From assembly GCA_023267435.1 (NCBI GenBank), contig JAHFNH010000003.1, positions 76,717 to 115,841 on the forward strand: a stretch of DNA of 39,125 bases, read 5' to 3'. A program made the translations under genes and the position numbers. Numbering within the stretch: the stretch's first letter is position 1; each line of letters opens with the position of its first letter. Positions 6,108-39,125 of the stretch are shown piece after piece. This DNA comes from Candidatus Nomurabacteria bacterium. Its GTDB lineage: Bacteria; Patescibacteriota; Minisyncoccia; Phycocordibacterales; UBA9973. The notes beneath the pieces were generated by a model that worked only from the letters and a program-made list of their open reading frames with translations, had not been told where the DNA came from and searched no databases.

Positions 6108-6147
6108 AATATTTGATCTGTAACCATACTAGCTTTTTAATGAAGTG

Positions 6148-6156
6148 ATTATAGCA
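6148..6156 (-). promoter_or_regulatory. truB promoter, extended -10
   Basis: Minus-strand TGC followed by TATAAT (6153-6148) forms an extended -10 element. The predicted start is near 6141, about 34 bases before the TTG. No good -35 is seen. It lies 11 bases from the -10 of the divergent GH3-family gene. Confidence 0.6.
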
Positions 6157-6161
6157 CAATT

Positions 6162-6170
6162 TGGTATACT
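6162..6170 (+). promoter_or_regulatory. GH3-family gene promoter, extended -10
   Basis: TGG followed by TATACT (6165-6170) is an extended -10, with transcription expected near 6177. It lies downstream of the in-frame ATG at 6145 and about 30 bases before the ATG at 6202, which decides the start of the gene. Confidence 0.6.
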
Positions 6171-6201
6171 ATATTCGGCTAAGGCCAAAAACAATAAATT
6201 T

Positions 6202-13520: not shown

Positions 13521-14309
13521 TTAAAAAATTGGAAAAAGATGTAACTCAAAAAGAAAAGCTATAATCGCGCCAAAAACCAAGAATGGCGCAAATGGAATTT
13601 CGCTTTTCATTCCATGCTTTTTAGAAAAAGCGATCAACAAAAGTCCGACTATTGCCCCAGACCAGAAAGCTACAACGACACCACTTAGCACTCGAGAAAG
13701 TCCTAAAAGCCAACCTAAACCTAAAGCCAACTTAGCATCCCCTAGCCCCATCCAGGTCCCCCTGGAAATAAGCCAGATCAAAGCGAAAGGCAATGCGATA
13801 AATATTCCAGACAAAAATTCTAAGGCAGATGGAATATGCGGATAAAAACCAGAACTAGAGAAAAGAAACATTCCTAAAAATGCTAATGCTCCAAAAAACA
13901 AAGCAAGAGTGTTGGGAATTATTTTATGCCTTAAATCATATACTGCAATAATTATAAGCAAAGAAAACATCGTGGCATAGAAAGCCATAGTGAAAGAAAA
14001 TACGTAAGTATTCACATAAAAAATATCTCTGAACTTCAAAAACAATCCGGCAAAAATAAGTCCAGTCACAAGCTCGACAAGAGGATACTGAATTGATATT
14101 TTACTCTGACAATGCGCGCATCTGCCCTTGAGAGTAAGATAACTAACTACTGGTATAAGCTCATGCCAAAGCAATTCTTTTTGGCAATTCATACAAGAAC
14201 TACGTCCGCCTAAGTTTCTCTGAGTGTTGTATCGCAAAATCACAACATTTAAAAAACTTCCTATAATAAGACCGAAAACAAAGAAAAAAGTTGTGATGAT
14301 TGATATCAT
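13521..14309 (-). CDS. pilD: Prepilin peptidase PilD (type IV leader peptidase)
   Basis: This membrane aspartyl protease of 262 residues removes the leader of prepilins and can N-methylate the new end. The zinc-binding CxxC pairs are present at Cys39/Cys42 and Cys64/Cys67. The two catalytic aspartates are Asp125 in VYDLRHKIIPN and Asp191 in GLGDAKLAL. About eight membrane segments are visible. An extended -10 box lies just upstream and past the pilA terminator, so pilD begins its own transcription unit with the four minor prepilins and ligA. Confidence 0.96.
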   Translation of the reverse strand: MISIITTFFFVFGLIIGSFLNVVILRYNTQRNLGGRSSCMNCQKELLWHELIPVVSYLTLKGRCAHCQSKISIQYPLVELVTGLIFAGLFLKFRDIFYVNTYVFSFTMAFYATMFSLLIIIAVYDLRHKIIPNTLALFFGALAFLGMFLFSSSGFYPHIPSALEFLSGIFIALPFALIWLISRGTWMGLGDAKLALGLGWLLGLSRVLSGVVVAFWSGAIVGLLLIAFSKKHGMKSEIPFAPFLVFGAIIAFLFELHLFPIF

Positions 14310-14341
14310 TTTTATTGATTTAAATTAATAAAGCTTCCTTT

Positions 14342-14350
14342 ATTATATCA
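14342..14350 (-). promoter_or_regulatory. pilD operon promoter, extended -10
   Basis: Minus-strand TGA followed by TATAAT (14347-14342) lies between the pilA terminator and pilD. The predicted start is near 14335, leaving a leader of about 26 bases. Confidence 0.6.
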
Positions 14351-14363
14351 CAACAACGCAAAA

Positions 14364-14395
14364 CAAAAACCACTCCAAGACTAGAGTGGTTTTTG
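14364..14395 (-). terminator. pilA terminator
   Basis: A perfect 12-bp stem (14364-14375 with 14384-14395) has an eight-base loop and a T-rich tail on the minus strand. It sits directly downstream of pilA and isolates it from pilD. Confidence 0.85.
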
Positions 14396-14412
14396 TTTAA
14401 ATAATTTTTATA

Positions 14413-14916
14413 TTATGGGCAAGCAGTAAAAACAGTATTGAGTGTCAGAGTATCCTCAATTTTAGCAAGTCCGGCAGAATCAACACAATAATAATCAACA
14501 CCAGAAGAAGAATTAACCACATTTTGTGATTTTAATTGAACACCCGCTGCCCAAAGCTGGCCAGTAGAGTCAACATAACCATATGCGATTGTACCAGAAG
14601 CTGCAGCTGTAGCTTTCATTGCTTCTAAAGCGCCAAGGCTTGCAGAAGGACCAAACATATCGGTACAACTACTAGCAACACCAGCACTTGTGACATTACA
14701 AGCAAGGAGTCCGGTAGAATATTTATTGTTAGTATCATAATAAAGCGCTGCTTGAGCTCTCATACCGCTTAAATTTGATTTGATTGCGGCATCTGCACCT
14801 TTTGTTCTTGCAGAGTTTAATGATGCCAAAACAACAGAAGCCAAGATGCCGATGATAGCAACAACGACCAAAAGTTCAATCAATGTGAAACCTTTCTTTG
14901 AATTCATTTTTTTCAT
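14413..14916 (-). CDS. pilA: Major type IV pilin PilA
   Basis: This 167-residue prepilin has a canonical class III leader, KKGFTLIELLVVVAIIGILA, with cleavage after Gly9 and Glu at +5. The globular domain carries four Cys residues, two of them near the C-terminus (YYCVDS and TACP), which suggests a D-region-like disulfide. Its own extended -10 promoter and strong terminator set it apart from the assembly genes on both sides. That fits high-level expression of a structural subunit. An alternative start at Met4 (14907) would shorten the leader to six residues and cannot be excluded. Confidence 0.92.
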   Translation of the reverse strand: MKKMNSKKGFTLIELLVVVAIIGILASVVLASLNSARTKGADAAIKSNLSGMRAQAALYYDTNNKYSTGLLACNVTSAGVASSCTDMFGPSASLGALEAMKATAAASGTIAYGYVDSTGQLWAAGVQLKSQNVVNSSSGVDYYCVDSAGLAKIEDTLTLNTVFTACP

Positions 14917-14955
14917 AAATTATTTTTAATTATTCTTATAATATATAACTGTCCT

Positions 14956-14964
14956 ATTATACCA
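14956..14964 (-). promoter_or_regulatory. pilA promoter, extended -10
   Basis: Minus-strand TGG followed by TATAAT (14961-14956) lies in the 72-base gap after pilC. Transcription is predicted near 14949, giving a leader of about 32 bases. No strong -35 is seen. Confidence 0.65.
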
Positions 14965-14988
14965 CAAATGTAAAAGAGATATCCACTT

Positions 14989-16194
14989 CTAGCTTATTCC
15001 TCCTGCCATATTGTAAATCGGCATCAAAACAGAAACTAGAAGCAGTCCCACACCGAGACCTAAAACCACGATCATAACCGGCTCAATAAGCCCGACAAGT
15101 GTATCAACTGCATCATCCACTTCGCGCTTATAAAAATCAGCCAAAGTTTTTAAAATTGAACCTAAGGCACCTGTCTCCTCTCCGACCTTCACCATCTGCA
15201 CCATAATACCCGGCATTTCCGGATGTTTTTCAAAAGCAGCAGAAAGCGCTAGACCTGACTTCACTCCGTCTGCTGCGTCTTTTAATATTTCCTTATACAC
15301 TCGGCTGCCAACAACAGAAGAAGTGATATCAATAGCTCGCACAATCGGCACACCAGAAGTGAGCATTGTGTCTAAGTTGTCAGCAATACGAGAAAGATAT
15401 AATTTTTTATAAAGATTGCCCACTGCAGGGATAGAGAGACGAGCCTTGTCGAGATATTCTTTTCCTTTTTCAGTACTAGAAAGTCTCCAAAGCCAGACAC
15501 CTAAAAGTGCTACGAAAATGATAGCAAGAAAACCATAGTGAACAGTGAAATCAGAAAGCGCAATAACGACTTTAGTATAAAAAGGAATATCTTGTCCGGA
15601 GTCTAAGAGAATAGCTGACAATTTCGGAATAACCACGACGAACATAAGACCCATCACCACAAAAAATGTAACGATAACGAAAATAGGATAAATAAGAGCG
15701 TTTCTAGTTTTAGAAGTTAGTGCGTATTGGCGATCTAAATAATCAGCCAAATGTGCAAAGGTTTGATTTAATTTTCCTGTTTCTTCTCCAACTTTGACCA
15801 TGTTCACATAAAAATCAGAAAAAACATCCGGATGTTTTGCTAAGGCACCGGAAATGGAAACACCCGCCTGTAAATCATCACTGATTTGATTGAGTTTATG
15901 GCTCAATATTTTATTTTCTGCATTGGCTGCAAGCATTGTGAAAGCTTTAAGGGCTGACACTTGCGCTTCGAATAAAGTCGAGATTTGGCGAGAAAGAATC
16001 ACGACATCTTTCATTGGAATTCTTTGTGTGAAAGAAAATTGAAGAAGAGAAGTTTTAGCGCCTTCTTCTTTTATAGAAATAACAATAAGGCCACGGCGCT
16101 GAAGCCCGCTTATCGCCATATCGCGATTGGTCGCATCGATCGATCCTTCCCTACTTATTCCTTTGTCGTCTACTGATTTATATTTAAATAACAT
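14989..16194 (-). CDS. pilC: Pilus inner-membrane platform protein PilC
   Basis: PilC is the polytopic platform that couples the PilB and PilT motors to pilin insertion or removal. The 401 residues contain two T2SSF repeats: the first from about 60 to 190, with GEETGKLNQTFAHLADYLD, and the second from about 265 to 395, with GEETGALGSILKTLADFY. Each is followed by hydrophobic helices, and a final membrane helix (VMIVVLGLGVGLLLVSVLMPI) lies near the end. The N-terminal domain is GspF-like (FKYKSVDDKGISREG). It is 18 bases downstream of pilT and ends the assembly operon. Confidence 0.96.
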   Translation of the reverse strand: MLFKYKSVDDKGISREGSIDATNRDMAISGLQRRGLIVISIKEEGAKTSLLQFSFTQRIPMKDVVILSRQISTLFEAQVSALKAFTMLAANAENKILSHKLNQISDDLQAGVSISGALAKHPDVFSDFYVNMVKVGEETGKLNQTFAHLADYLDRQYALTSKTRNALIYPIFVIVTFFVVMGLMFVVVIPKLSAILLDSGQDIPFYTKVVIALSDFTVHYGFLAIIFVALLGVWLWRLSSTEKGKEYLDKARLSIPAVGNLYKKLYLSRIADNLDTMLTSGVPIVRAIDITSSVVGSRVYKEILKDAADGVKSGLALSAAFEKHPEMPGIMVQMVKVGEETGALGSILKTLADFYKREVDDAVDTLVGLIEPVMIVVLGLGVGLLLVSVLMPIYNMAGGIS

Positions 16195-16212
16195 ATTTGT
16201 AATTATTAATTA

Positions 16213-17271
16213 TTAAATCATGCGCTCGAGCGCTTTTGGATTTAATGAATATTGATAAGCGTTCTCGATTGAAATTTCTCCTGCGCGCACGAGCTCTATG
16301 AGAGAACGGTTTAAATCAACCATTCCGCTCTCCATCCCCGTTTCTATAACCACATCTATTTCATGAGTGCGCTTTTCGCGAATCAAATTTGAAACAGCGC
16401 TATTATTTAAAAGGAGTTCATAAGCTGGCACAAGTCCGCCAGCAATTCTGGGAACAAGCCTTTGGGAGAAAATACCGAGCAAGCTGGAAGCAAGCTGAAC
16501 TCTGATCTGATCCTGCTGGTTGCCTGGGAAAGAATCGATAATACGATCTATCGTCTGAGAAGCATTATTAGTATGTAAAGTTGAAAGAACGAGATGACCC
16601 GTCTCGGCAGCAGTCACAGCTGTCGAAATAGTATCAGGATTGCGCATTTCACCGATCATTATTACATTTACATCCTCGCGAAAAATAGATTTTAAAGCTA
16701 TATGAAAATCCTCTGTATCAATACCGACTTCACGCTGATCAATGATGGATTTATTTGGAACATACACATGCTCTATTGGATCTTCTACGGTCACAATATG
16801 GCGCGCCTGTTCGTTATTGATCAAATTTATCATAGCCGACAAGGTGGTTGATTTACCTTGACCAACCGGACCGACTACCAAGAAAAATCCTTGTTTCTTA
16901 CGAGCTAAATCAGCAATTATCTGAGGAAGCTTCAAGTCAGCTAAAGGCTTTACTTTTGGAACAAGCCTGAAAGCCAAACTAATTAATCCTTTTTGGAAAA
17001 AAGCGTTTCCTCGAAGTCGAGCTTCTCCTCTAAAATCATAAGAGAAATCCATTTCTTTCTTTTCTAAAAATTTAGTGAGTTTTTCTTTGTCGAGAACTTC
17101 ACCTAATATTCCGATCATGTCTTCTTTAGTGAAAACCGGATGTTTGACTAAAAAAATAAGCTCGCCATTAACGCGAATAGCCGGAACGCGTCCGCCACCT
17201 AAATGCAAATCAGATCCGCCTTCGCGGATAACAGTCAAAATAAGTTCTTCAAGTTCTTTTTTATAATCCAT
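16213..17271 (-). CDS. pilT: Pilus retraction ATPase PilT
   Basis: PilT is a hexameric ATPase that depolymerises the pilus. The 352 residues include a PAS-like N-terminal domain (GGSDLHLGGGRVPAIRVNGEL), a variant Walker A GPVGQGKST (134-142, where GPTGSGKST is usual), an Asp box VEDPIEH, Walker B NVIMIGEMRNP and a His box GHLVLSTLHTNNA. The C-terminal SAVSNLIREKR corresponds to the AIRNLIRE motif required for retraction in studied PilTs, which supports PilT over PilB. It lies between the receiver gene and pilC. Confidence 0.96.
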   Translation of the reverse strand: MDYKKELEELILTVIREGGSDLHLGGGRVPAIRVNGELIFLVKHPVFTKEDMIGILGEVLDKEKLTKFLEKKEMDFSYDFRGEARLRGNAFFQKGLISLAFRLVPKVKPLADLKLPQIIADLARKKQGFFLVVGPVGQGKSTTLSAMINLINNEQARHIVTVEDPIEHVYVPNKSIIDQREVGIDTEDFHIALKSIFREDVNVIMIGEMRNPDTISTAVTAAETGHLVLSTLHTNNASQTIDRIIDSFPGNQQDQIRVQLASSLLGIFSQRLVPRIAGGLVPAYELLLNNSAVSNLIREKRTHEIDVVIETGMESGMVDLNRSLIELVRAGEISIENAYQYSLNPKALERMI

Positions 17272-17304
17272 CCTATATAAAATTAAAAAATAATAATTAA
17301 GTTA

Positions 17305-17706
17305 TTATTTAACAGCACCAGTTTTCTTAGACAAAATTTCTAAAACCTGAGTGATAACTTCTGCTGGAGTTGAGTTTGCTTTAACGATATAACCATCTAC
17401 GCCTAATTCCCTGCCATGATCAACATCTTCCTTTTGTCCCTTGTTGGAAAGAATTATTTTTGCAGAATCAACAGATAATTTTTCTGCATTGATCTTTTCA
17501 AGCATTTCAAAACCATTCATCTCCGGCATAATTATATCTGTCAGGATAATATCGGGCTTTAATCCGGATTGAAGTTTCTCTAAAGCTTGTGCACCACTGC
17601 CTACTGCATGGACATCAAAATTACTCTGGCTGAACTTCAACGCATACATATCCAACAGGAAACTATCATCATCTATTAGTAAAATTTTTCTTTTTCCTTC
17701 ATTCAT
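17305..17706 (-). CDS. Stand-alone response regulator receiver in pil operon
   Basis: This 133-residue protein is a single CheY-like receiver with no output domain. The acidic cluster IDDDS (11-15), phospho-acceptor Asp57 in IILTDIIMPEMNG, and a late Lys in GYIVKANS complete the active site. It sits between pilB and pilT in the same orientation, so it probably regulates pilus motors by protein contact, as PilG- or PilH-like receivers do. No kinase lies within the pilus locus; candidates are the kinases at 28921 and 31476. A tandem TATAAT about 15-25 bases upstream could be an internal promoter. Confidence 0.92.
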   Translation of the reverse strand: MNEGKRKILLIDDDSFLLDMYALKFSQSNFDVHAVGSGAQALEKLQSGLKPDIILTDIIMPEMNGFEMLEKINAEKLSVDSAKIILSNKGQKEDVDHGRELGVDGYIVKANSTPAEVITQVLEILSKKTGAVK

Positions 17707-17766
17707 ATATTTATCTTTTAATTATATTATAAAACGACTTTTAATGATATAAACCGATTAAAGAAC

Positions 17767-19518
17767 CTATTCATTCTCATTAGTGAAATTATACACCTCT
17801 TGGAAAGGAATTACACCATCCACAGCTTTAAGCATAGCATCTTCACGCATCATCAGCATTCCCTTCTTACGGGCAACCTTGTAAATCTCAGAATCTACAG
17901 GGTTTTTGAGTATCACTTCCTGCATTTCCTTGTCTACTTTGAACATTTCATAAATTGCAATACGGCCACGAGTACCGGCAGGACATTCAGGCGAAGGAAC
18001 AGTATCATACATCTCGTTTTTGATTTCAATATCTTTTTTAAATTCTTCCGGCAAATCTTTCATCTGTTCTTCGATCTGCATTCTGATGCTTTTATCCATC
18101 GGTGTAAGTTTTCTGGATGAAGGGCAAGTTAATCTCGTCAAACGTTGCGCCACAGAAAGAATCAAAGTTGGAGCAATAAGATAAGGATCCACTCCCATAT
18201 CTACAAGACGTGGAATAGCGCCAATGGCGGAGTTAGTGTGAAGTGTTGATAAAACAAGGTGTCCAGTTAATGCCGCTTGAATAGCGAGCTGGGCTGTTTC
18301 TTTATCTCGGATTTCTCCAACCATGATTACATCTGGGTCCTGACGAAGAATCGAACGCAAACCTGACGCGAAAGTATATCCAATTTCCGGCATCATTTGC
18401 GACTGGTTTATGTCAGGCATGTGATACTCAACAGGGTCTTCTAATGAAACGATATTACTTTTTTCCTTATCTAACTCATTCATCATAGAATAAAGAGTGG
18501 TGGATTTTCCGGAACCAGTCGGTCCAGTAATAAGAATAAGTCCGTAAGGTTTCTTAATAGCTTCTCTGATCATCTTGAGATTTGTTTTTGATAAGCCAAG
18601 TTGATCTAACGGCTTCACCCCTTTTTCAGAATCCAAGATACGCATCACAACCTTCTCACCATAATAAGCCGGCATTGTTGAGACACGGAAATCAATTTTT
18701 CTGCCATCAATGTTTGTACTAAAAGATCCGTCTTGAGGTTTTCTTTTTTCATCTAGACGCAATTTGGAAAGAATTTTTATGCGCGCAACTATTCCGCTGT
18801 ATACATTTGTCGGCAAAATAATCGTCGTATGAAGAGAGCCGTCCACACGATAACGAACTTTAACCTTTTCTCCAGTATGTTCTATATGTATATCGGACGC
18901 ATTACCTTCTATGGCATTACGCAATATAACTGCGACGATTTTTATAACAGGAGCATCTTCTACAATTTTTTCTTCTTCTCCAGGTTTTACGTCTTTTATG
19001 TCTTTGCTCAATCTCATAGCTTCGCCTGATTTCTTTAAATCAATAGCCTCATCTTCGTCTAATTCACCCAAGGCTTCATCTACTTGGTTTGAAATGCCTT
19101 TGTAGTTTTCCATTACGCCATTGTAATCTGTTTTAGAAATGAGAAAAATTTTGAAAGGAATTCCAAGCTTTGCAGAAATAAATTGCAATGCATCCATCGC
19201 CTGAATATTTTCCGGATCCGTCACACCAACTTCCAATACTTCATCTTGCAAACTGAGTGGAACAAATCCATAATGCATCGCAGAATCTTCCGGAATATAT
19301 TTAAGAGCATCAAAAGAAAGAGCTTTCGGATTTACTTTTTTTGTCGGCATTTGAAAATACTCTCCTTTTATTTCCAAGAGAGTTTCTTCTAAAACGCCCG
19401 ATTCAATCAAAGTATCATCAACATTACCACCGTGCTTTTCTTTGGCACGATTTTTAATTTCCCCTATTTGGCTTTCATTGATTACGCCCTTTTTAGCTAA
19501 TTCTTCTAAAAAACTCAT
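17767..19518 (-). CDS. pilB: Pilus extension ATPase PilB
   Basis: PilB is the hexameric ATPase that drives pilus polymerisation. The 583 residues hold an N-terminal GspE/MshEN-type domain (about 1-140), a linker, Walker A GPTGSGKST (332-340), an Asp box SLEDPVEY, Walker B DVIMVGEIRD (396-405) and a His box GHLVLSTLHTNSA. In most PilB/GspE proteins a tetracysteine zinc module follows. Here only two of the four cysteines remain (TCPSSRK and PECPAGTRGR), so zinc binding is doubtful. The gene follows the PilP-like gene by eight bases and precedes the receiver by 60. Confidence 0.96.
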   Translation of the reverse strand: MSFLEELAKKGVINESQIGEIKNRAKEKHGGNVDDTLIESGVLEETLLEIKGEYFQMPTKKVNPKALSFDALKYIPEDSAMHYGFVPLSLQDEVLEVGVTDPENIQAMDALQFISAKLGIPFKIFLISKTDYNGVMENYKGISNQVDEALGELDEDEAIDLKKSGEAMRLSKDIKDVKPGEEEKIVEDAPVIKIVAVILRNAIEGNASDIHIEHTGEKVKVRYRVDGSLHTTIILPTNVYSGIVARIKILSKLRLDEKRKPQDGSFSTNIDGRKIDFRVSTMPAYYGEKVVMRILDSEKGVKPLDQLGLSKTNLKMIREAIKKPYGLILITGPTGSGKSTTLYSMMNELDKEKSNIVSLEDPVEYHMPDINQSQMMPEIGYTFASGLRSILRQDPDVIMVGEIRDKETAQLAIQAALTGHLVLSTLHTNSAIGAIPRLVDMGVDPYLIAPTLILSVAQRLTRLTCPSSRKLTPMDKSIRMQIEEQMKDLPEEFKKDIEIKNEMYDTVPSPECPAGTRGRIAIYEMFKVDKEMQEVILKNPVDSEIYKVARKKGMLMMREDAMLKAVDGVIPFQEVYNFTNENE

Positions 19519-19526
19519 AATATAGT

Positions 19527-19955
19527 TTAGGGTTTTGGAGTCTGAGTAGTTGGAGTATTTGTCGAACCAGGATTTGTAGTAGCTGGAGAGTTTGTATTAG
19601 GAGTTAAAGCGTTAATGGGAGCTGCGATTACATCTGAACCGATAGGAGCAAATGGGTTTGGTCTTCCTTCTGTTCCATCAGATACAAGTTGAATGCTAGA
19701 ATCACGCAAAGTAGCAAAAGCCGGATCAGAAAAAATAGAATCATCTAATTTTATGCTTTTTACATTAAGAAGGACAGTTAGAAAATCTCCACCGATAGCA
19801 CTAGAACCTGTGCTAGTCGTACTTGTGGTTGATGTGCCAGTGGATGAAGTTAAAGCTGACTGGTCTGGAGCAGGTTTAAGGAAAAAGACATAAGCCAAGA
19901 TAAGGATTATGGCGACGACTGCTAATATTATTATGTTTTTGATTATTGAAGACAT
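19527..19955 (-). CDS. PilP-like membrane-anchored pilus accessory protein
   Basis: This 142-residue protein has an N-terminal membrane helix (NIIILAVVAIILILAYVFF), a Ser/Thr/Gly-rich linker (about 36-53), a small conserved-looking core with DPAFATLRDS, the motif GRPNPFAPIG, and a Thr/Pro-rich tail. Its place immediately after pilO, and the NPFxP motif near the end of the core, resemble PilP, which works with PilN and PilO. There is no lipobox cysteine, so if it is a PilP equivalent it is anchored by a helix rather than lipid. The assignment rests mainly on position and one motif. Confidence 0.6.
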   Translation of the reverse strand: MSSIIKNIIILAVVAIILILAYVFFLKPAPDQSALTSSTGTSTTSTTSTGSSAIGGDFLTVLLNVKSIKLDDSIFSDPAFATLRDSSIQLVSDGTEGRPNPFAPIGSDVIAAPINALTPNTNSPATTNPGSTNTPTTQTPKP

Positions 19956-19958
19956 ATT

Positions 19959-20567
19959 TTAATTTTTCAGCCAATAAGTTTTAATTTTAAATCCATATTT
20001 ATAAGAATTAGAAGAAGTAGCAGCTGCCGCAGCGGAAAGCCCCGCACCAGTATCAGAAGCAAATTGAATTGATGATACGTCGACAATTCTTAGATTACTT
20101 TCCAAATCTTTTACGAAATTAAGAAAATTTAAATAAGTGCCTTGAGTAGAAAACTCCAAATTCCAAGCTCCGTAATTCTTGCGTGAAGCAGTATTGGCGA
20201 CTCCCCCTTGGATTGCACCACTTGGTTGAGCAGTAGCGGATTGGCTGGTTGTGTCATATTTCACATCTTTCAAGACCATACCGTAAGGCGAAGCAACCTT
20301 TTCAATTTCCAAAATTAAACGAATATTATCTACAGTATCAGGTAAGAACTTCTGTAATTTATCCAAATTTCCAGGATCAATCGAATTATATTTTTGAGTC
20401 AATTTGTCTCGCTCAGCTTCAAGCGTCTTGGAATTATTCAATGCTTCATTATAAGAAGCGACTTGAGATCTCAAATCAGAAATATCATTGTAAAGCGGAA
20501 CAGTAAATACAAAAAACCCTGCAGCGGCGACTCCTATTAAAATTGCTGGAAAAGCGAATCGAAACAT
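19959..20567 (-). CDS. pilO: Pilus alignment protein PilO
   Basis: This 202-residue bitopic protein has one N-terminal membrane helix (about 4-27), a coiled-coil region (NDISDLRSQVASYNEALN through LDKLQKFLP) and a ferredoxin-like periplasmic domain containing YLNFLNFVKDLESNLRIVDV. That last stretch is a PilO signature. A low-complexity Ala/Ser loop (about 175-188) is inserted near the C-terminus. PilO pairs with PilN to link PilM to outer components. The gene lies two bases after pilN and three before the PilP-like gene. Confidence 0.9.
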   Translation of the reverse strand: MFRFAFPAILIGVAAAGFFVFTVPLYNDISDLRSQVASYNEALNNSKTLEAERDKLTQKYNSIDPGNLDKLQKFLPDTVDNIRLILEIEKVASPYGMVLKDVKYDTTSQSATAQPSGAIQGGVANTASRKNYGAWNLEFSTQGTYLNFLNFVKDLESNLRIVDVSSIQFASDTGAGLSAAAAATSSNSYKYGFKIKTYWLKN

Positions 20568-20569
20568 AA

Positions 20570-21181
20570 TTATTGAGTATTACTGCTCTGCGTTGCGAGC
20601 ATTTGCTTATAATCTACAAACGATGGATCGACCGAAAATTCTAAATCGAACAAAACATTACCATTATTATCAAGAGAAAGATTGGAAAAAACTGGATCGA
20701 TTAATTCTTTTGCATTTGTAGAAAAAAGCATAGACTGTAACGCAATCGAACGATATCCTATAGCCTGTCCACTCATTTTAACATCTACTTTGGCATTTTT
20801 TTCGCCACTGAAATCATAACTAAATTTTGTATATCTAATATTTTTTAAAGTTTCTCTTGAGAGAACATCGAAAATCGGAGATACGGCAATATGGTTCGCA
20901 AGAATTTCATTAGAAGAACTCAAACGCTTGTCTAATACTTGAAGCTGAGTTATTTTAGAACGTTCAAAACGATTTTGAGCAAGATTTAAATCGTTCTGCA
21001 TTTGAGTAATATTTTTAGCTAAAATTCCTTTATAAAAATATAATCCACCAGAGACAACTACTATGGAAATGAAAATAAAAATTGAAAGAATAGTCAAAAG
21101 ACCGACAGGACGCGAAGCGACTGCTCGCTCTTCGACCATCGGCTTCTTTGGTATGAATGATGTTTGAAAATCTGACTCCAT
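20570..21181 (-). CDS. pilN: Pilus alignment protein PilN
   Basis: This 203-residue bitopic protein has a short cytoplasmic N-terminus (about 1-26), a single membrane helix (about 27-50) and a coiled coil (NITQMQNDLNLAQNRFERS), followed by a periplasmic domain. In studied systems the PilN cytoplasmic tail docks into PilM. Here the tail lacks an obvious INLLP-type motif, so that contact has diverged or cannot be seen. Its position between pilM and pilO, the topology and the coiled coil make the assignment solid although sequence signatures are weak. Confidence 0.85.
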   Translation of the reverse strand: MESDFQTSFIPKKPMVEERAVASRPVGLLTILSIFIFISIVVVSGGLYFYKGILAKNITQMQNDLNLAQNRFERSKITQLQVLDKRLSSSNEILANHIAVSPIFDVLSRETLKNIRYTKFSYDFSGEKNAKVDVKMSGQAIGYRSIALQSMLFSTNAKELIDPVFSNLSLDNNGNVLFDLEFSVDPSFVDYKQMLATQSSNTQ

Positions 21182-21203
21182 ATTGTTTATTATATTATCT
21201 CAC

Positions 21204-22331
21204 TTATTGTAATTTTCGCAAAGCTAAACCTAACGCAATTGCAAACTCGGGACCTGTCGTTTCGAGAACTTTTCCTAAAAATGCCGGTGCGCCGATTTTT
21301 GAAAATGGATTTCCGATTTTTACTTCCGCTCGAAAATTATTTGATGCTGTTTCCGGTAAACCTTTCAAAAGAGAACCTCCGCCTGTGAGTATAACCTTGC
21401 TGATAGTCCGATTGTACTTCTTCTCGTATCCTAATAATACATTATTCGTTTCTGAAAAGATATAGTCGGTGTGGATTTTGATGATGTCGGACAAACTTTT
21501 TTCCGCAGGACTTCCGAAAAGTCCGAATTCTTTTTTCATTTCTTCCGCTTTGGAATATGGAATACTTAAAGATTTGGAAATGGCATCGGTTATATCTGCT
21601 CCCCCGCGGTTTATAATATGAAAACCTCTGACTGATCCGAATTCGACAATAGAAAGCTTAGTATGCGATGCGCCGAAATCCATAAGGAGTACTGGTGAGA
21701 GCTCATGTTCAAAATTTGCGCGAATGGAAGAAAAAATTTCTATCTCAAAAAATCCTGCTTCGAGAGAACATTGAGAAACCAAAGATCGATATTTAGAAAC
21801 TGCATCATTCTGAATTGCCACAACTAATACTTCTGTCTTATCGGCTGGAAGAGATGCTAAATCAGGATTATTCGCTTCTTCAAAGGAAGCTTCTTTTTTA
21901 GGAAGGACAAACCAATCAAGTGAAACTTCTGTAATCGGCACAGGAATATATTTGCGAGCTTCCGTTGGAATAATGGACGCCAATTCACTTTGTTTAACCT
22001 GTGCTGGCAAATCGATGGTAAAAATAAGACTCGACTGTACTGGAACAGAAAGAGCCACGGACGGAGTCGTAACGCCGGATTGTTTTAAAACTTCTTTCAA
22101 TGCCTCGACTATTTTTTCAGCCGGTAAATTGGTAACACGTCCATTATCAAGATCAGCATAAGGACCCAATGCAATGGCTCCGTAAGTTTCAAGTACGGCT
22201 TTTCCGTTTTTTTTCTTTATTTCAACCACTTTAATCGACGAAGAACCGATGTCTATGCCGACAGCGCTATCGCTTCCACCACCTCCGAACAGGTTTCCAC
22301 TTGAGAAAAATTTTTTAAAAGGATTGTCCAT
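21204..22331 (-). CDS. pilM: Pilus assembly actin-like ATPase PilM
   Basis: PilM is the cytoplasmic actin/FtsA-like component that binds PilN. The 375 residues show the nucleotide-binding motifs of the fold: VGIDIGSSSIKVVEI (phosphate 1, about 24-38), VLLMDFGASHTKLSIVE (phosphate 2) and VILTGGGSLLKGLPE (adenosine). An N-terminal Gly/Ser stretch precedes the fold. It is the first gene of the assembly operon, with an extended -10 box about 20 bases before the ATG, and is divergent from comFC across 32 bases. Confidence 0.94.
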   Translation of the reverse strand: MDNPFKKFFSSGNLFGGGGSDSAVGIDIGSSSIKVVEIKKKNGKAVLETYGAIALGPYADLDNGRVTNLPAEKIVEALKEVLKQSGVTTPSVALSVPVQSSLIFTIDLPAQVKQSELASIIPTEARKYIPVPITEVSLDWFVLPKKEASFEEANNPDLASLPADKTEVLVVAIQNDAVSKYRSLVSQCSLEAGFFEIEIFSSIRANFEHELSPVLLMDFGASHTKLSIVEFGSVRGFHIINRGGADITDAISKSLSIPYSKAEEMKKEFGLFGSPAEKSLSDIIKIHTDYIFSETNNVLLGYEKKYNRTISKVILTGGGSLLKGLPETASNNFRAEVKIGNPFSKIGAPAFLGKVLETTGPEFAIALGLALRKLQ

Positions 22332-31062: not shown

Positions 31063-31455
31063 TTATTTTGCACTATTCAAATGCTTTTTAACTCTTTCGA
31101 CAATATGATTCAAATCAGTTTGTCCTTTCATAATGTATTCCAATATATTGTACTCGGAGACTTTTTTAAGCGTATCGACTCCCGCAGAAACAGAGACGAC
31201 AACCACCGGAATATTTTTATAATTCTCGTTGTTTTTAATAATTTCCAAGAATTTCAATCCGCCCATGCCAGGCATAAGCAGATCAAGCCAGATCAAATCA
31301 ATAGGTTTGGTCTTTTCCAAGACTTGCAACGCTTCCTCTCCAGAGCTTGCAGTAATAGTATCAAAACCATCTTTTTCCAGCTTGTGCGTAATCACATGCA
31401 AAAGGCTTGGTTCATCTTCAACAACGAGTATTAATTTTTTTATTTCCTTGGCCAT
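31063..31455 (-). CDS. Stand-alone response regulator receiver
   Basis: This 130-residue protein is a single receiver domain without output. The acidic pair is in VVEDEPS (11-17), the phospho-acceptor is Asp58 in IWLDLLMPGMGG, and the conserved Lys is in YIMKGQT. It starts 20 bases after the PAS histidine kinase at 31476 ends, so that kinase is the likely phosphodonor. With no DNA-binding domain it must act through protein contacts, perhaps relaying to another kinase or to the pilus. Confidence 0.93.
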   Translation of the reverse strand: MAKEIKKLILVVEDEPSLLHVITHKLEKDGFDTITASSGEEALQVLEKTKPIDLIWLDLLMPGMGGLKFLEIIKNNENYKNIPVVVVSVSAGVDTLKKVSEYNILEYIMKGQTDLNHIVERVKKHLNSAK

Positions 31456-31475: not shown

Positions 31476-33146
31476 TCAAGACAATAATCCCACTTCGCCT
31501 TTTTTCGACTGCATACCAGACAAAGGAATAGTAAAATAAAAAGTTGTTCCTTTTCCCTCTTCTGATTCGAACCATATTTTTCCATTCCACATTTCCACGA
31601 CAGAACGCGCCAAATTGAGACCCAATCCAGTGCCACTGGGAACAGTTGAAACAGCATTATCGGCGCGGTGAAATTTCTCAAAAATTTTACTCTGAGCATT
31701 CTTAGGAATACCAATGCCATTATCTTTAATCATAAAGATTGCTTGTTCTTTATCACCGACTATCTCTTTTTTCAAAGAGATATCAATCTTGCCGCCATCC
31801 GGAGTGTAGTTTAAAGAATTGGAAATCAAATTTAGTATTGCCTGCCTTAAAAATTCAGTACCCAATTTTATTTTCGGCAATTTTGGATCAGCAATAAAAT
31901 TAACTTTTAAGTGTTTTTTATTTGCAAGATTCTTCAATTGCTCCAATATTTCATCAGTTATACTTTTTACATCAGTCATTTCTGTTTCAATATTAACTCT
32001 GCCGGCTTCAAGTCTACTAATAGCAAGTAATGCGCCGATCAAATCAAGTAAGCGAACTGACCCCTTGTGTAAATCTTCCATAAAACCAACTTGCTTATCG
32101 GTCAATTTACCAATGTCACCTGACAGAAATAATTCAGAGACCCAACGGAGTGTTGTAAGAGGTGTACGTAGCTGATGCGAAACTATGGAGATAAAGCTGT
32201 TTTTTGCCTTGTCTAAATCTTTTTCTTCGGTCAAATCCCAGAAAATCACAACTGCGCTGGTAACACCATTTTCTACGAGAGGTGTTATCGCCAAACCGAC
32301 TGGAAATCTTTTATCAGCAGAAGTTTGGAAATAAATATTATCTTCTATGTTTGCATAAATTGTCTGGCCAGTCTCAAACATTTTTACAACTGGAATGTCT
32401 TTTTCATCAAGTAGAATATCTCCTTTTAATGTTGTAATTATGTTTTTTACATTGCGTCCGATAGCGTTATCAACCGAAACACCTAAAAGGTCTTGAGCTT
32501 TGTTGTTTAATAAAGAAATTTTGTAATCTTTGTTAATAATCAAAAGCCCTTCTCCCATTGAAGAAATAATCGCCTTTGAATAATCGCTCTCTTCTTGAGC
32601 TCTTCTTTCCGATTCTTTACTATCTTCTAAGATGTTATAGAGAGCATTTTTGGTATCTTCAATTTTCTTTAGATAATCCTGTCTTTCTCCCTCTTTTGTT
32701 TTTTCATAAGTGACATCACGGGATAAAAACAAAACGTATTCCACTTTTCCTTTTTCATTTTTTACAGGCTCAAAACTGCTCTGACACCATTCACCTTTGG
32801 AAGTGCCGGCAACATGCTCTATTTCAAAACTACTCGACTCTCCTTTTTCTAATGCCAATTTCATGGCATCTTTTATTTTTTGATGGTATCTTTTTTCAAT
32901 GCACTCAAAATAATTCCATTTTTTTATTTCTTCGTCAGTCTTATCAGTTAAAAAATGCTCTTCTCGGCCATTTTTGTTTATCGAGATCAAATCGCCATTT
33001 TTATCGAACCATTTAATACAAAGAGGAGTGGTATCTAAAAGAGTTCGGAACATTTTTTCCCTTTCTTTTAATTCCAAACATATTTTCTCGTTTTCTTCTA
33101 AACGCTTTTCTAGGGAATCCTTGTTTTTATGGAAAAAATTAAACAT
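31476..33146 (-). CDS. Soluble PAS-PAS sensor histidine kinase
   Basis: This 556-residue cytoplasmic kinase has no membrane helix. A short N-terminal coiled coil (about 11-34) leads to one PAS domain (about 33-150), a helical linker, a second PAS domain (about 188-308), then HisKA with His324 (FISIVSHQLRTPL), N box LNLISNSLNYTP, G1 KDNGIGIPK and G2 GTGLGLNLAR. Its start overlaps the preceding sensor gene by eight bases. Membrane sensor and kinase therefore appear to be one signalling protein divided into two chains. It uses the only TGA stop I found in the window. Confidence 0.94.
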   Translation of the reverse strand: MFNFFHKNKDSLEKRLEENEKICLELKEREKMFRTLLDTTPLCIKWFDKNGDLISINKNGREEHFLTDKTDEEIKKWNYFECIEKRYHQKIKDAMKLALEKGESSSFEIEHVAGTSKGEWCQSSFEPVKNEKGKVEYVLFLSRDVTYEKTKEGERQDYLKKIEDTKNALYNILEDSKESERRAQEESDYSKAIISSMGEGLLIINKDYKISLLNNKAQDLLGVSVDNAIGRNVKNIITTLKGDILLDEKDIPVVKMFETGQTIYANIEDNIYFQTSADKRFPVGLAITPLVENGVTSAVVIFWDLTEEKDLDKAKNSFISIVSHQLRTPLTTLRWVSELFLSGDIGKLTDKQVGFMEDLHKGSVRLLDLIGALLAISRLEAGRVNIETEMTDVKSITDEILEQLKNLANKKHLKVNFIADPKLPKIKLGTEFLRQAILNLISNSLNYTPDGGKIDISLKKEIVGDKEQAIFMIKDNGIGIPKNAQSKIFEKFHRADNAVSTVPSGTGLGLNLARSVVEMWNGKIWFESEEGKGTTFYFTIPLSGMQSKKGEVGLLS

Positions 33147-33978: not shown

Positions 33979-34338
33979 TTATTTTCCTTTAAGGATTACC
34001 ATTTTTACCTTGTCTATGATTTCATTGACTGGATGCTCGCTTTTTACAAAATAGTCTACCGCTCCGAGCTTCAAGCCTTTCTTAATGCTCTCATCATCAC
34101 CGAGATTACTGGTAATTATAACCGGCACATTATCCCCCTCTATTCCTTTTAGAACTTCAAAACCATCTTTTTTAGGCAACATCAAATCAAGCAAAATAAC
34201 ATCTGGTTTCCAGTTTTTAATATCATCAAGAGCATCTTCGCCATCAGTCGCAATCTTGGTTGAAAAACCGGCTTTTTTGAATTTTTCTTCAAGCACTTTT
34301 GCTAAAACATCTTCATCTTCTACTATAAGTATTTTCAT
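33979..34338 (-). CDS. Stand-alone response regulator receiver
   Basis: This 119-residue single receiver domain has the acidic cluster VEDED (6-10), phospho-acceptor Asp51 in VILLDLMLPKKDG, and Lys in YFVKSEHP. It lies between the cohesin-like membrane protein gene (11 bases) and the membrane sensor gene (6 bases). This puts it in the same transcript as a surface protein and a sensor. No output domain is present. It is the third stand-alone receiver in the window. Confidence 0.94.
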   Translation of the reverse strand: MKILIVEDEDVLAKVLEEKFKKAGFSTKIATDGEDALDDIKNWKPDVILLDLMLPKKDGFEVLKGIEGDNVPVIITSNLGDDESIKKGLKLGAVDYFVKSEHPVNEIIDKVKMVILKGK

Positions 34339-34349
34339 ATTATTATATA

Positions 34350-36083
34350 TTATCCTATTTCTTCTATATTTTCAAGCACGTAATTCTTTGCTTTCTCAAT
34401 ATTACCATCAATCTTCTTGAGTGTGTAGTTAACATTTATTTCGACATCCTTGCCTGGAGCTTCACCGTTAACTTTATGTTCTTTAATTATAGATGCTATG
34501 TCTTTCTCGATATTAACAAGGATAGCATTCACATCTCTCTCAGCAATTATAATACGGTTATGCCTTTGTTTTTCAGCAAGATTTCTTAAAACCCAACCGG
34601 AAAAGAACGAGATTCCAAAAAACAGAATTAGAATAACCAGAAGGCCTTGATATGTGACATTTAATTTACCCAATACCAAAACAGGCCTTTCGGTAACGCT
34701 AATGCTGTCAGATTTTACTGGAAAGCTCAATGCGCCACGATTATCCTTCGCAGTAATTTCAACAATATAAGAACCTTTTTTAAGAGACTGATCAATGCTG
34801 ACAGACCAAAAGCCTTTTTCATTGGATGATACTTCTCCTTTAAATATACTTTCCCCCGACTCTAATTTAAGATTATAAAGTATCGTTGATGAAGGAAAAG
34901 AAGAACCATTTAAGGACAATCCGCCCTCTCCGATAAATATATTGCGGTTAATAAAAAGTATTTCCGGCGATTGAATTGGCAAAATTTCAAGATCTAATCT
35001 GCCTTCTGTAATATTGCCAGCCTTATCTCTGGCATCAACAACGACCTGATGCTTGCCTGGTGCAACTGGTTTGAACACATAAGAAGTTTTTTGAGTTTTA
35101 ACTTCTTCCTTACCGTCAATTAATATTTGATAATAATCGATACCTGAAAATTGATCACTGGAAGAAAATTTAATCTCAGGTGTTGGATTATCAGAAACAG
35201 GATCACCTGTTATTTCTACTTTAAATGGTAATGGTGGAAGAGCATCAATCAATATCTTGTAATGATTGGTAACACCCCAGCCGATATTATTCTTAAACCT
35301 AACATGCAAGTACCAAACTCCATTTGAAAGAGCCTTGAATGTCTTATTATCGAAAAGCCCTTCTGATTTTGTGGGATCTGTATTTGGAATTTTATCAAGA
35401 GAAGATGCAATATCGGTCACATCTTTAGGCAAATTCCAATTAGCTGAAAAATCTGAAACTGTATCATACCAACTGCCTGAATTGGGATAAAGTAAAACGT
35501 TTAAAACTGGCTTCGTAGGCAATGAAGCAGCAATTTCAGCCGCACGCGTGATCTGAGCCTGCGCCGCTTTATTCACCTCTGATTTACTTAGAACAGAAAA
35601 AGAAACTCCTTTACTGATAGAGAGAACATTCGCACCGGAACCATCAGCTGCACTGATGGCAGTATCGGAGAAAACTAAACTAGCATCACCATTGCCTATC
35701 ACTTTAAATTTAATTCGAAGCACTTGCAGTGATTTACCCGAATAACCGCTGATCGTCGAACCACCAACAAAAGAAACATTTCCTAGAGTATTATCAAAAG
35801 AAGGTTCCGTCAACCAAAAATTAAAAGTGGAATCAGTCTTATCAAGAGTATCAACTTTTAAAATATCAGTTGGAAATTTAATGGTAGCTTGTGCAGCGTT
35901 AATGCTCACGTCTTCACTATCAATCTTAACATCAACAGTCAGAGTATCCCCTACTACCGGATTTGCTTTGTCGGTAAACATTCCTAAACTAGCCGCTTCG
36001 GTAATGGCTGGTCTAAAAAATACAGCAAATATGATGATTGCAACTAATGAGAACTGAACAAAAATTGATTTGTAATTATTCAT
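34350..36083 (-). CDS. Membrane-anchored cohesin-like surface protein
   Basis: This 577-residue exported protein has an N-terminal signal/hydrophobic segment (about 8-31, AVFFRPAITEAAS). A cohesin-like beta domain follows (about 32-172): VVGDTLTVDVKIDSEDV, AQATIKFPTDILKVD, and LQVLRIKFKVIGNGDASLVF are family-like strands. An Ig-like middle follows (about 300-365, PGKHQVVVDARDKAGN), then another beta domain. One membrane helix (478-499) and a charged cytoplasmic tail of nearly 80 residues end the protein. The upstream gene encodes a dockerin-ended adhesin, its natural partner by family logic. The downstream genes are two-component parts. The cohesin call is from sequence pattern. Confidence 0.78.
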   Translation of the reverse strand: MNNYKSIFVQFSLVAIIIFAVFFRPAITEAASLGMFTDKANPVVGDTLTVDVKIDSEDVSINAAQATIKFPTDILKVDTLDKTDSTFNFWLTEPSFDNTLGNVSFVGGSTISGYSGKSLQVLRIKFKVIGNGDASLVFSDTAISAADGSGANVLSISKGVSFSVLSKSEVNKAAQAQITRAAEIAASLPTKPVLNVLLYPNSGSWYDTVSDFSANWNLPKDVTDIASSLDKIPNTDPTKSEGLFDNKTFKALSNGVWYLHVRFKNNIGWGVTNHYKILIDALPPLPFKVEITGDPVSDNPTPEIKFSSSDQFSGIDYYQILIDGKEEVKTQKTSYVFKPVAPGKHQVVVDARDKAGNITEGRLDLEILPIQSPEILFINRNIFIGEGGLSLNGSSFPSSTILYNLKLESGESIFKGEVSSNEKGFWSVSIDQSLKKGSYIVEITAKDNRGALSFPVKSDSISVTERPVLVLGKLNVTYQGLLVILILFFGISFFSGWVLRNLAEKQRHNRIIIAERDVNAILVNIEKDIASIIKEHKVNGEAPGKDVEINVNYTLKKIDGNIEKAKNYVLENIEEIG

Positions 36084-36099
36084 TAATAGATGAATTTAA

Positions 36100-39000
36100 T
36101 TATTTTTTAATTGCTTGCAAAAGCTTACTAAAATCTCCTTGATCTATTGTACCATTTTTATTGAAATCAAATTTCTTTATCTGTGAATCCGATAATTTTC
36201 CACCAGTCTTTTCATATAGAAAAGTTGCATTGAAGGCTGAAACATCTGCAAGATTAACTTTGCCATCTTTATTCGTATCCACCTGCGGTATTCTAGTCTT
36301 CACAATCTGGAAGGATTGTTCAAGTGATTTTCCTTTCAAACCATCTACAACATAGAATGTGTGCTGGCCGTCAGACAGGTCATTGGCAGAAACCTGAATT
36401 TCGTAAGAATCATCTGCTTTTATATTGGTCTTCTTGTACATTTTACCATCAATATATAAGGTTATAGTCTTATCTTTTGCATAACCTCGGATGTAAGTAA
36501 AGAATGCAAAGTGGTCATCAGAAATCGAAACTGTCGGAGGAATGTTGGCGCTTTTTACATTAATATTTCCCTCTTTGTCATTATTGTAAAGCATAAATGG
36601 AGCACTGTTGCCATTTACATCGGTATATTGAATTCCAAAAGCTGGGAAATTAGCTGGTATATTTTCTTTTTTAATTACGAATGATCCATCCTGATTAGGC
36701 TTAACTGCAAGACCCAAGGGGACTAAATTAGTGGTTGAGCTGTCTGAAACATTAACACCGAAAACATTAATTGTTCCTCCTGTAACTGATGCAGATTTAC
36801 CCGCTATAAAGATATCTGCTGTTGAAGTATTTGTTGGTGTTGTTGAAGATTCATTTGAAATTGAACCGCCTCCACCTCCGCAAGTTCGGAAAGTAACTGA
36901 AGCTGAATCAGGCATGATTTTTCCAGTATCTACATCTACTAAAGAAACAGTGATAATTTCAGCGTTAGCATCAGCAATATTTGTCTGATAAAAACCACCA
37001 GAAAGATGTACTGGAAGACTGTTTGGTGTAGCTGAACCAGTGACAGCTAAAGTCACATTTCCATCAAGAAGAGTATCAGCATGTCCGGCATTATCTACCG
37101 CCTGAAGAGTGACTTTCACAACGTTGGTTGTACATACATCATTATTATCCAAGTTCATATCAATACGAGTTGAGATGATAGGGGTAGGGCTCGCGGTAAT
37201 ATTAAAACTACCACTTGAAATTGACGGATCAGAACTTGCAGCGGTAATTACAGAATCTCCTGGCAGAGCATCTGTATATTGAAAACCGACAGACGAAGAT
37301 CCTCCTGGGATTGTTACAGAATTAGGATTGAAAGAAGCGCTACCTGAACTTGAAGACAAATTAACTTGATTTGAACCGGAAGTAATTTCCACATCAGATG
37401 CATTTAATCTTGTAACTATACAATTTACAAAAGTACTGACTGTGAAAGTGGAAGCAACGCAACTGGTTGTGAGTTTAGTTACAGGTTGATTCGAATCAAT
37501 TTCAAAAGAAGGAATTGGAAGGAGTGTACTTGGATTTCCGGCTGTGTCTGTAACTAGGATTGTACAATTTGAATAAGTTCCATTTGGAAGCGCACCGAAA
37601 GTTACAATATTATCCCCTACTATAGCTAGAGCTGGTGAAGCTGTTCCACAAGAACCGCCGTAAGTAATATTTCCTGCTTCGTTTGAATGAAAAGTATAAC
37701 TTGGAGTCGTATCGTTAGATAATACTGAAACAGGTGTAACCCCACTTAGTGTCGGTCCAGTAATATCATAAGTAATATGAAGATTTGTAAGCAAGTTTCC
37801 ATTGTTGGCACTATCGTGTGCAGCATCAGCAGGAATTGTTATCGTGACTGTTCCTTCAGTTGGAGAAGTTATATCAAAAGTATAACTAGATCCGCTGCCG
37901 GCAAAATTGGTCACTGTTCCAGAGTTAAGATTTATATCGCTTGAATCAAAATCAGTAACACTTGCACTTAAATTAACTGTCACTGGTATCGGAGCAGTTT
38001 TTGTAATACTGGATGCAACTATTGCTACTGTTAAGGCTGATTTGTTTATGTCGTAAACATCACCGCCAACGAATGGAATATTGGATATATTATTACCAGT
38101 AGCGTCTGCTATTGTCGCCGTGCCTGAAACATCGAGGCGAATTGTTCCATCACCAGTACCAGTATCCACTGTAACCGTCACTGATGAACCGGAGCTAGCA
38201 CTAACTCCCGTCACAGAAGCACCAGCAAGGGCACCTGTTCCTGTTATAGAAAAATCATCCGTTGCAATACCTGAGACTGATTCAGAAAAAACAACATTGA
38301 AGTTCACACTTTGAGCGTTGGTTGGACTTGAACCTGTTTTGGTAATAGAACTTACTGTTGGTATTACGGTATCGACAGTCCAAGTAAATTCGACTGGTGT
38401 CGGATCAACATTACCTACACCGTCAATCGCTCTAACTAAGAATGTGTGGCTAGTACTGGAAAGAGATGAGTAAGCTTGAGGGCTGGTACAAGGAGCATAA
38501 CTGCCAGCATCTAATTTACACTGGAAAGTTCCAGCTTTACTTGAAGAGAAATCAAAGGACGCACTTGATGAATTGGATATGATTGATGGAGAAGATGTGA
38601 TACTTGTATCTGGTGAAACTGTATCAGTTGTTATAGAAGAAACGTTTGTTGTTGAAACAACTTGAGTTCCAGCGTTTGTTGCGAGATCAGAAAAATCTAT
38701 CGTGAAGGTGACTGCTCCGCTCGTATCAGTGGCATCGACAATATATGAAGCTGTCCAATTATCTCCACTTGGATTATTTATTGAAACACTATTTGATACA
38801 CTTGCTCCGCCTGATTTGAAAATAACAGTTGGAGAATTTATTGCCTCATCCGCAGTAAAGGAAAGAGTTATTCGATCACCGGGTTTAGCCGAAGCGGTAT
38901 TTGCATTGTTTGAAATGATAGTAACTGAAGTTAATGTTGGAGGAGTAGTGTCTAGATTGATTGCAAAACTGGCAGTCACAGAAATGTTTGCAAGAACATT

Positions 39001-39125
39001 TGAATCAGTTCTACCTGCTGTTAGAACTCCATCACTCCATGAAGTGAAGTGATATCCAGAAGCTGGTGTTGCTGTAACTAATGTACCTGAAGCACCACTG
39101 TTCACTGTTTGTGGTGAAGTACCGA
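36100..39125 (-). CDS. Giant Ig-repeat surface protein with C-terminal dockerin (partial)
   Basis: The frame is open at the window's right edge, so the N-terminus is missing; about 1008 residues are visible. From the edge it reads an InlB-B-like repeat (PASGYHFTSWSDG) and several bacterial Ig-like domains with recurring TPPTLTSVT, VIPTVSSITKTG and GPTLSGVTPVS boundaries. A glycine-rich hinge (CGGGGGS) and two more beta domains come next. The last 65 residues are a dockerin-like module with two calcium loops, DTNKDGKVNLADV and DFNKNGTIDQGDF. There is no membrane anchor or sortase motif at the C-terminus. It is 16 bases upstream of the cohesin-like gene and likely docks onto its product. Confidence 0.85.
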   Translation of the reverse strand, partial: GTSPQTVNSGASGTLVTATPASGYHFTSWSDGVLTAGRTDSNVLANISVTASFAINLDTTPPTLTSVTIISNNANTASAKPGDRITLSFTADEAINSPTVIFKSGGASVSNSVSINNPSGDNWTASYIVDATDTSGAVTFTIDFSDLATNAGTQVVSTTNVSSITTDTVSPDTSITSSPSIISNSSSASFDFSSSKAGTFQCKLDAGSYAPCTSPQAYSSLSSTSHTFLVRAIDGVGNVDPTPVEFTWTVDTVIPTVSSITKTGSSPTNAQSVNFNVVFSESVSGIATDDFSITGTGALAGASVTGVSASSGSSVTVTVDTGTGDGTIRLDVSGTATIADATGNNISNIPFVGGDVYDINKSALTVAIVASSITKTAPIPVTVNLSASVTDFDSSDINLNSGTVTNFAGSGSSYTFDITSPTEGTVTITIPADAAHDSANNGNLLTNLHITYDITGPTLSGVTPVSVLSNDTTPSYTFHSNEAGNITYGGSCGTASPALAIVGDNIVTFGALPNGTYSNCTILVTDTAGNPSTLLPIPSFEIDSNQPVTKLTTSCVASTFTVSTFVNCIVTRLNASDVEITSGSNQVNLSSSSGSASFNPNSVTIPGGSSSVGFQYTDALPGDSVITAASSDPSISSGSFNITASPTPIISTRIDMNLDNNDVCTTNVVKVTLQAVDNAGHADTLLDGNVTLAVTGSATPNSLPVHLSGGFYQTNIADANAEIITVSLVDVDTGKIMPDSASVTFRTCGGGGGSISNESSTTPTNTSTADIFIAGKSASVTGGTINVFGVNVSDSSTTNLVPLGLAVKPNQDGSFVIKKENIPANFPAFGIQYTDVNGNSAPFMLYNNDKEGNINVKSANIPPTVSISDDHFAFFTYIRGYAKDKTITLYIDGKMYKKTNIKADDSYEIQVSANDLSDGQHTFYVVDGLKGKSLEQSFQIVKTRIPQVDTNKDGKVNLADVSAFNATFLYEKTGGKLSDSQIKKFDFNKNGTIDQGDFSKLLQAIKK

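Follow-up and report, generated by a model that had tools for sequence, protein, structure and literature searches.

The window analysed here is a stretch of 39,125 nucleotides from a Candidatus Nomurabacteria genome. It contains, on the minus strand, a tightly spaced run of genes that in the order of transcription encode an adhesin, an anchor protein, a response regulator, a sensor-like protein and a histidine kinase (Table 1). The adhesin and anchor genes are separated by 16 bases (36084-36099), the next gaps measure 11 and 6 bases, and the sensor and kinase genes overlap by 8; the run is called an operon because of this spacing alone, and co-transcription is inferred. A kinase with HisKA and HATPase domains and a receiver domain occur in the same gene run, which is the combination that we required of a two-component system. 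Both regulators in the window are stand-alone receivers, and the second is followed downstream by a tRNA-Ser gene and a further kinase. The sensor and kinase of the window are two overlapping genes; in some relatives the sensor part is fused to a kinase, and in others it is a separate protein.

Two other regions of the window deserve mention. A type IV pilus cluster on the minus strand (13521-22331) encodes a prepilin peptidase, a PilC-like protein, two ATPases (PilT- and PilB-like) and a PilM-like protein; it lies 10-20 kb from the adhesin operon, and there may be a functional reason for its closeness to the adhesin operon and to the stand-alone receivers. On the plus strand, positions 6145-7710 encode a GH3-family protein (E 6e-65), a member of a family of acyl-adenylating enzymes known above all for conjugating plant hormones.

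Table 1. Positions of the genes and domains of the adhesin-anchor locus within the window.
Feature	Position	Strand	Basis or remark
Giant secreted adhesin, C-terminal part	36100..39125	-	Ig-like and InlB B-repeat domains; runs past the window end across a 10-N gap to a signal peptide
Ig-like module just before the dockerin, X-module-like, kept in relatives	36304..36540	-	Alignment A4, AF2, Big_13/Big_6 matches in relatives, PDB 7dm0
Dockerin domain, two calcium loops (36244-36279, 36133-36168)	36112..36279	-	PF00404, AF2 three helices
Anchor protein, 577 aa: signal peptide, cohesin, Ig domains, membrane helix, cytoplasmic tail	34350..36083	-	
Cohesin domain of anchor	35556..35981	-	Alignment A1, PF00963 in relatives, AF2, Foldseek
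Big_13 Ig-like domain of anchor	34983..35141	-	Pfam, E 4.1e-10
Anchor membrane helix	34584..34643	-	Hydropathy, from about residue 481
Anchor cytoplasmic tail (about 75 residues), conserved in relatives and probably helical	34353..34577	-	Sequence; topology inferred
Stand-alone response regulator, 11 bases past anchor	33979..34338	-	PF00072 3e-23
Sensor-like protein, 277 residues, two membrane helices	33139..33972	-	Homologous to sensor parts beside relatives' anchors
Histidine kinase (PAS, PAS, HisKA, HATPase), 8-base overlap with sensor gene	31476..33146	-	
Second stand-alone response regulator, 20 bases past kinase gene	31063..31455	-	PF00072 1.5e-21

A dockerin on the adhesin and a cohesin on the anchor

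The adhesin extends beyond the window, which corrects a previous, sequence-only reading of this DNA. Only its C-terminal part lies there; a 10-N scaffold gap follows directly after the window (contig position 115842), and the frame resumes past this gap in an ORF of 1175 residues (L033:6819-10346) with a signal peptide, Big_13 / Ig repeats and three more InlB-type B-repeats; the adhesin is thus at least about 2,150 residues long. The gap (G000:C19:115842-115851, or L033:6843-6852) sits inside nearly identical InlB-type B-repeats, and the repeat number is unreliable there. The same reading was right that the adhesin lacks an anchor of its own, no hydrophobic anchor being found in its sequence, and that the gene 16 bases further on encodes a protein with a C-terminal membrane helix, which is apparent from its sequence.

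The adhesin had also been said to end in two calcium loops of the dockerin type, and both are present (DTNKDGKVNLAD and DFNKNGTIDQGD). Pfam family PF00404 (Dockerin_1) matches the adhesin at 7.5e-7 with 29.7 bits, above the curated cut-off of 22.9, and matches the tail alone at 5e-8 with 33.5 bits. An alignment of the tails of the window adhesin and 27 relatives (A4) consists of an Ig-like module followed by the dockerin, and its profile retrieves cellulosomal dockerins and X-module-dockerin chains from the PDB, including 4wi0 and 4u3s across both modules. It also matches the terminal Ig module to a biofilm-associated protein (PDB 7dm0) at 1.8e-13. In the AF2 model of the Ig-dockerin tail, an Ig sandwich precedes helices at 101-115, 122-128 and 138-149, and this predicted loop-helix-helix-loop-helix pattern, together with the two calcium loops in the sequence, is what a dockerin fold requires and bears out the earlier expectation that the loops would form one. 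It is important to point out that the Foldseek search with this model retrieved mainly Ig domains and is no separate test of the dockerin part; dockerin membership therefore rests on the profiles and the helix pattern of the model.

These data bear on the possibility that the EF-hand pair is merely a calcium stabiliser or a secretion signal that does not bind the cohesin, in which case the two genes would simply be co-expressed surface proteins. EF-hand models match the adhesin tail too, PDB EF-hand proteins outscore dockerins when the window sequence is used alone, and there are no binding data for dockerin and cohesin. Against this, Dockerin_1 is the best among the Pfam families, scores above its cut-off and matches 27 of the 28 aligned tails. 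The window dockerin has kept the calcium ligands of both loops; the SIF-type helix motif found in its relatives has been lost and six residues are inserted (A4), so that its affinity could differ from theirs.

The cohesin of the anchor is less easily recognised. Taken alone, the window domain has no Pfam match and fails the PF00963 cut-off, searches of the window proteins with Pfam and NCBIfam miss it, and phmmer against PDB sequences gives 0.08 at best, with scaffoldin cohesins already in the first two places. The domain is too diverged for Pfam alone, and the case needs relatives and the predicted fold. An alignment of 36 cohesin domains (A1) contains 17 that match PF00963, the best at 8.2e-10, and the A1 profile reaches scaffoldin cohesins in the PDB at 1.1e-3. 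AF2 models the window domain with a pLDDT of 95.3, and the leading Foldseek matches of the model (best 50) are cohesin crystal structures, with TM up to 0.74; among them are the non-cellulosomal cohesins of Archaeoglobus fulgidus (2xdh, TM 0.71) and Clostridium perfringens (2vo8, TM 0.72; also 2jh2). The description of this domain as cohesin-like is thus upheld by the predicted cohesin fold and by homology to PF00963 through relatives, and not by a Pfam match of the domain itself.

The genome holds one clear cohesin of the anchor family, and a PF00963 profile search of the same genome gave nothing beyond one weak match to an unrelated stretch of contig C11. Contig C11 also encodes secreted Ig-like proteins (L034, 7588-9408 and 13612-15333) whose C-terminal tails, judged by eye, resemble type IX sorting signals; because such tails are unusual for Patescibacteria, this contig possibly contaminates the bin.

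Co-occurrence, gene order and payload in relatives

Among 297 genomes of the order, the cohesin is present in 112 and a dockerin in 125, and 95 genomes have the two together (odds ratio 29 with P 9e-33 by Fisher's test, without correction for phylogeny). A cohesin without a detected dockerin occurs in 17 of the 112 genomes and a dockerin without a detected cohesin in 30 of the 125, and draft genomes and the shortness of the domains may explain part of these unpaired cases. The matches listed comprise at least 136 dockerin places, at least 63 of which have a listed cohesin on their own strand no more than 5 kb away; the dockerin comes first in 61 of these 63 linked pairs, and no opposite-strand pairs are found among the matches listed. 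A further set of 25 named loci was collected on anchor similarity only, and in all 25 the gene directly before the anchor encodes a protein that ends in a dockerin; about seven of them repeat loci collected earlier. Where the records give a group, these relatives are Patescibacteria (Nomura-, Yonath-, Wolfe-, Niyogi-, Colwell- and Magasanikbacteria, Parcubacteria and Paceibacterota), and across the phylum the cohesin is present in 67 of 240 genomes. The largest payload seen is a 5198-aa open frame that ends in a dockerin (G077:C10, 205108-205248) directly before a cohesin gene. As judged from gene content and order, cohesin-dockerin pairing is conserved in Patescibacteria, and many relatives keep the arrangement with different adhesins. 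Genome-wide co-occurrence with cohesins and a constant gene order are hard to explain without an interaction, and we give the view that the EF-hand pair does not bind the cohesin only a slim chance.

The two proteins differ in how they vary between species, the median aligned fraction being 93% for the anchor versus 15% for the adhesin body (without its last 150 residues). Because the dockerin tail and its socket are conserved and the adhesin body varies, the anchor can be seen as a mount that stays the same while the surface proteins on it change. The divergence of the cohesin follows that of the dockerin more closely than the divergence of the anchor's Ig region does (partial r 0.43, P 0.0005, against 0.15), which suggests from the sequences, and does not prove, that the two domains co-evolve; shared ancestry was corrected for only roughly.

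The payloads also inform the question of whether the assembly is cellulosome-like, with the cohesin protein acting as a minimal scaffoldin for degradative enzymes. The domain pair is the same as in cellulosomes, and in the CPR lineage Shapirobacterales, where one genome carries both domains and both were reported to be expressed, it has been interpreted as cellulosomal (PMC9123182). The present locus speaks otherwise: the only dockerin found in the whole genome (797 kb, 22 contigs) is on the Ig-repeat adhesin, the dockerin proteins examined in relatives carry YDG, fn3, Ig or InlB-type repeats with no glycoside hydrolase or other catalytic domain among them, each anchor has one cohesin, and no carbohydrate-binding module was found in the anchor or the adhesin. 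A cellulosome proper, with dockerin-tagged plant-polysaccharide enzymes on a multi-cohesin scaffoldin, was considered as a candidate and rejected because no enzymes were seen among the dockerin proteins examined, and an assembly of a cellulosome-like kind appears hardly tenable. The sequence-only reading had seen no sugar-degrading domain, which holds for all adhesins examined, and the count of further dockerin proteins that it called for has come out at none in this genome.

The pair could in principle act between cells or with other partners, the adhesin binding the anchors of a neighbour and mediating cell-cell contact instead of being displayed by the cell that makes it. Contact or adhesive roles have been suggested for non-cellulosomal pairs (PMC5244752, PMC10066038), and a secreted adhesin could diffuse; one-to-one pairing in an operon with a single cohesin fits self-display better, and we rate the chance of action between cells as very small. 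The two modes are not mutually exclusive. Display of the adhesin on the anchor is well supported, with binding inferred.

Two subtypes and linkage to two-component genes

Three features go beyond what had been noticed in the window: the system occurs widely, a second subtype carries two or more cohesin anchors, and the window subtype is embedded in a two-component operon. In the multi-cohesin subtype, a dockerin protein (often short, about 300-470 residues, with the tail LVDFSIxAYWY) comes first and is followed by a 300-residue cohesin-membrane protein and then by a longer cohesin-Ig-membrane protein. In the single-cohesin subtype, to which the window belongs, one anchor stands right after a mostly long adhesin with the tail DWSIFLSRW, and two-component genes are usual: kinase or regulator genes accompany 12 of 15 single-cohesin loci versus 2 of 22 multi-cohesin loci (P 2e-5), and two-component genes are present in 20 of the 25 named loci. 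Of 12 genomes with the single-cohesin subtype, 11 have a response regulator no more than 11 kb from the anchor, where 1.8 would be expected (P 3e-9); these loci were gathered before the two-component link was noticed, and the genomes are related and not independent. In two genomes (G221 and G253) the only two regulators found both flank the cohesin-dockerin locus. Proteins and kinases encoded next to other anchors contain sensor parts that are homologous to the 277-residue sensor of the window.

Signalling through the anchor is an inference from this linkage to kinases and regulators and from the conserved cytoplasmic tail. An exchangeable adhesin held on a membrane-spanning cohesin might serve surface-contact sensing, with tail, sensor, kinase and receiver reporting attachment to a host cell or surface; this extension is tentative, and at present the doubts somewhat outweigh the grounds for it. 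If true, it would make the cohesin-dockerin pair a receptor, more than a mount, and would give Paceibacteria a general module for attachment.

Proposed display mechanism and comparison with known systems

The reading that we prefer, and consider highly probable, is a non-cellulosomal plug-and-socket display of a giant adhesin on a membrane anchor. The anchor would be secreted and held in the cytoplasmic membrane by its C-terminal helix, exposing one cohesin on the outside; the giant Ig-repeat adhesin would be secreted free and then dock on the cohesin through its C-terminal Ig-dockerin module, with calcium keeping the dockerin fold together. The likely role would be adhesion to cells or surfaces, and the two-component genes would control, or be informed by, attachment. 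While the domains, gene order, conservation and linkage can be read from the genomes themselves, binding, its calcium dependence, the surface location and adhesion are inferred, and there are no binding data and no model of the complex. A non-cellulosomal display system in a small-genome bacterium, as first proposed from the window alone, is nonetheless supported by fold, profile, one-to-one gene content, gene order and the contrast between conserved anchor and varying adhesin body. It offers a concrete and widely conserved candidate mechanism by which uncultured Patescibacteria could display large adhesins that have no anchor themselves, and it connects this display with sensory genes in cells whose entire set of response regulators may number just two.

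Our literature search, which did not extend to preprints and most subscription papers, recognised no description of an operon of adhesin, anchor and two-component genes, and its absence from the literature is unproven. According to a review (PMC5244752, citing Peer 2009), cohesins and dockerins are found in every domain of life, and their function outside cellulosomes is not known; that role is directly testable here, because the system comes down to a single cohesin and a single dockerin in one gene run.

Several known systems share individual features with the arrangement. Long secreted Ig-repeat proteins are likewise represented by SiiE and the Bap family, which the terminal Ig module of the adhesin matches by fold and profile. 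SiiE is a type I secreted adhesin of a Gram-negative bacterium; in contrast, retention here would be by a separate cohesin anchor. Cohesin folds outside cellulosomes are likewise known from A. fulgidus and C. perfringens, but the C. perfringens domains sit on glycoside hydrolases (PDB titles) and not in an adhesin-anchor operon. TMEM132 and related eukaryotic adhesion proteins are also membrane proteins that combine a cohesin with Ig domains and have a predicted adhesive role (PMC6030884), albeit in a distant eukaryotic family, and no dockerin homologue is detectable in vertebrates (PMC6030884). Closer in lineage is SEML1_0315 of a Saccharibacterium, likewise a patescibacterial dockerin protein, which is essential and envelope-associated and has a proposed role in adhesion or degradation; a cohesin is not mentioned in that study (PMC10633639). 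In the type II cohesin and X-module-dockerin pairs of C. thermocellum and A. cellulolyticus, a surface cohesin binds a dockerin that follows an X-module, as is inferred here. Display by cohesin and dockerin is an established feature of cellulosomes, which are generally anchored to the surface by cohesin proteins bearing SLH domains (PMC5817068), whereas the anchor here has a membrane helix, a single cohesin, adjacent two-component genes and, as its payload, a giant adhesin and not an enzyme scaffold.
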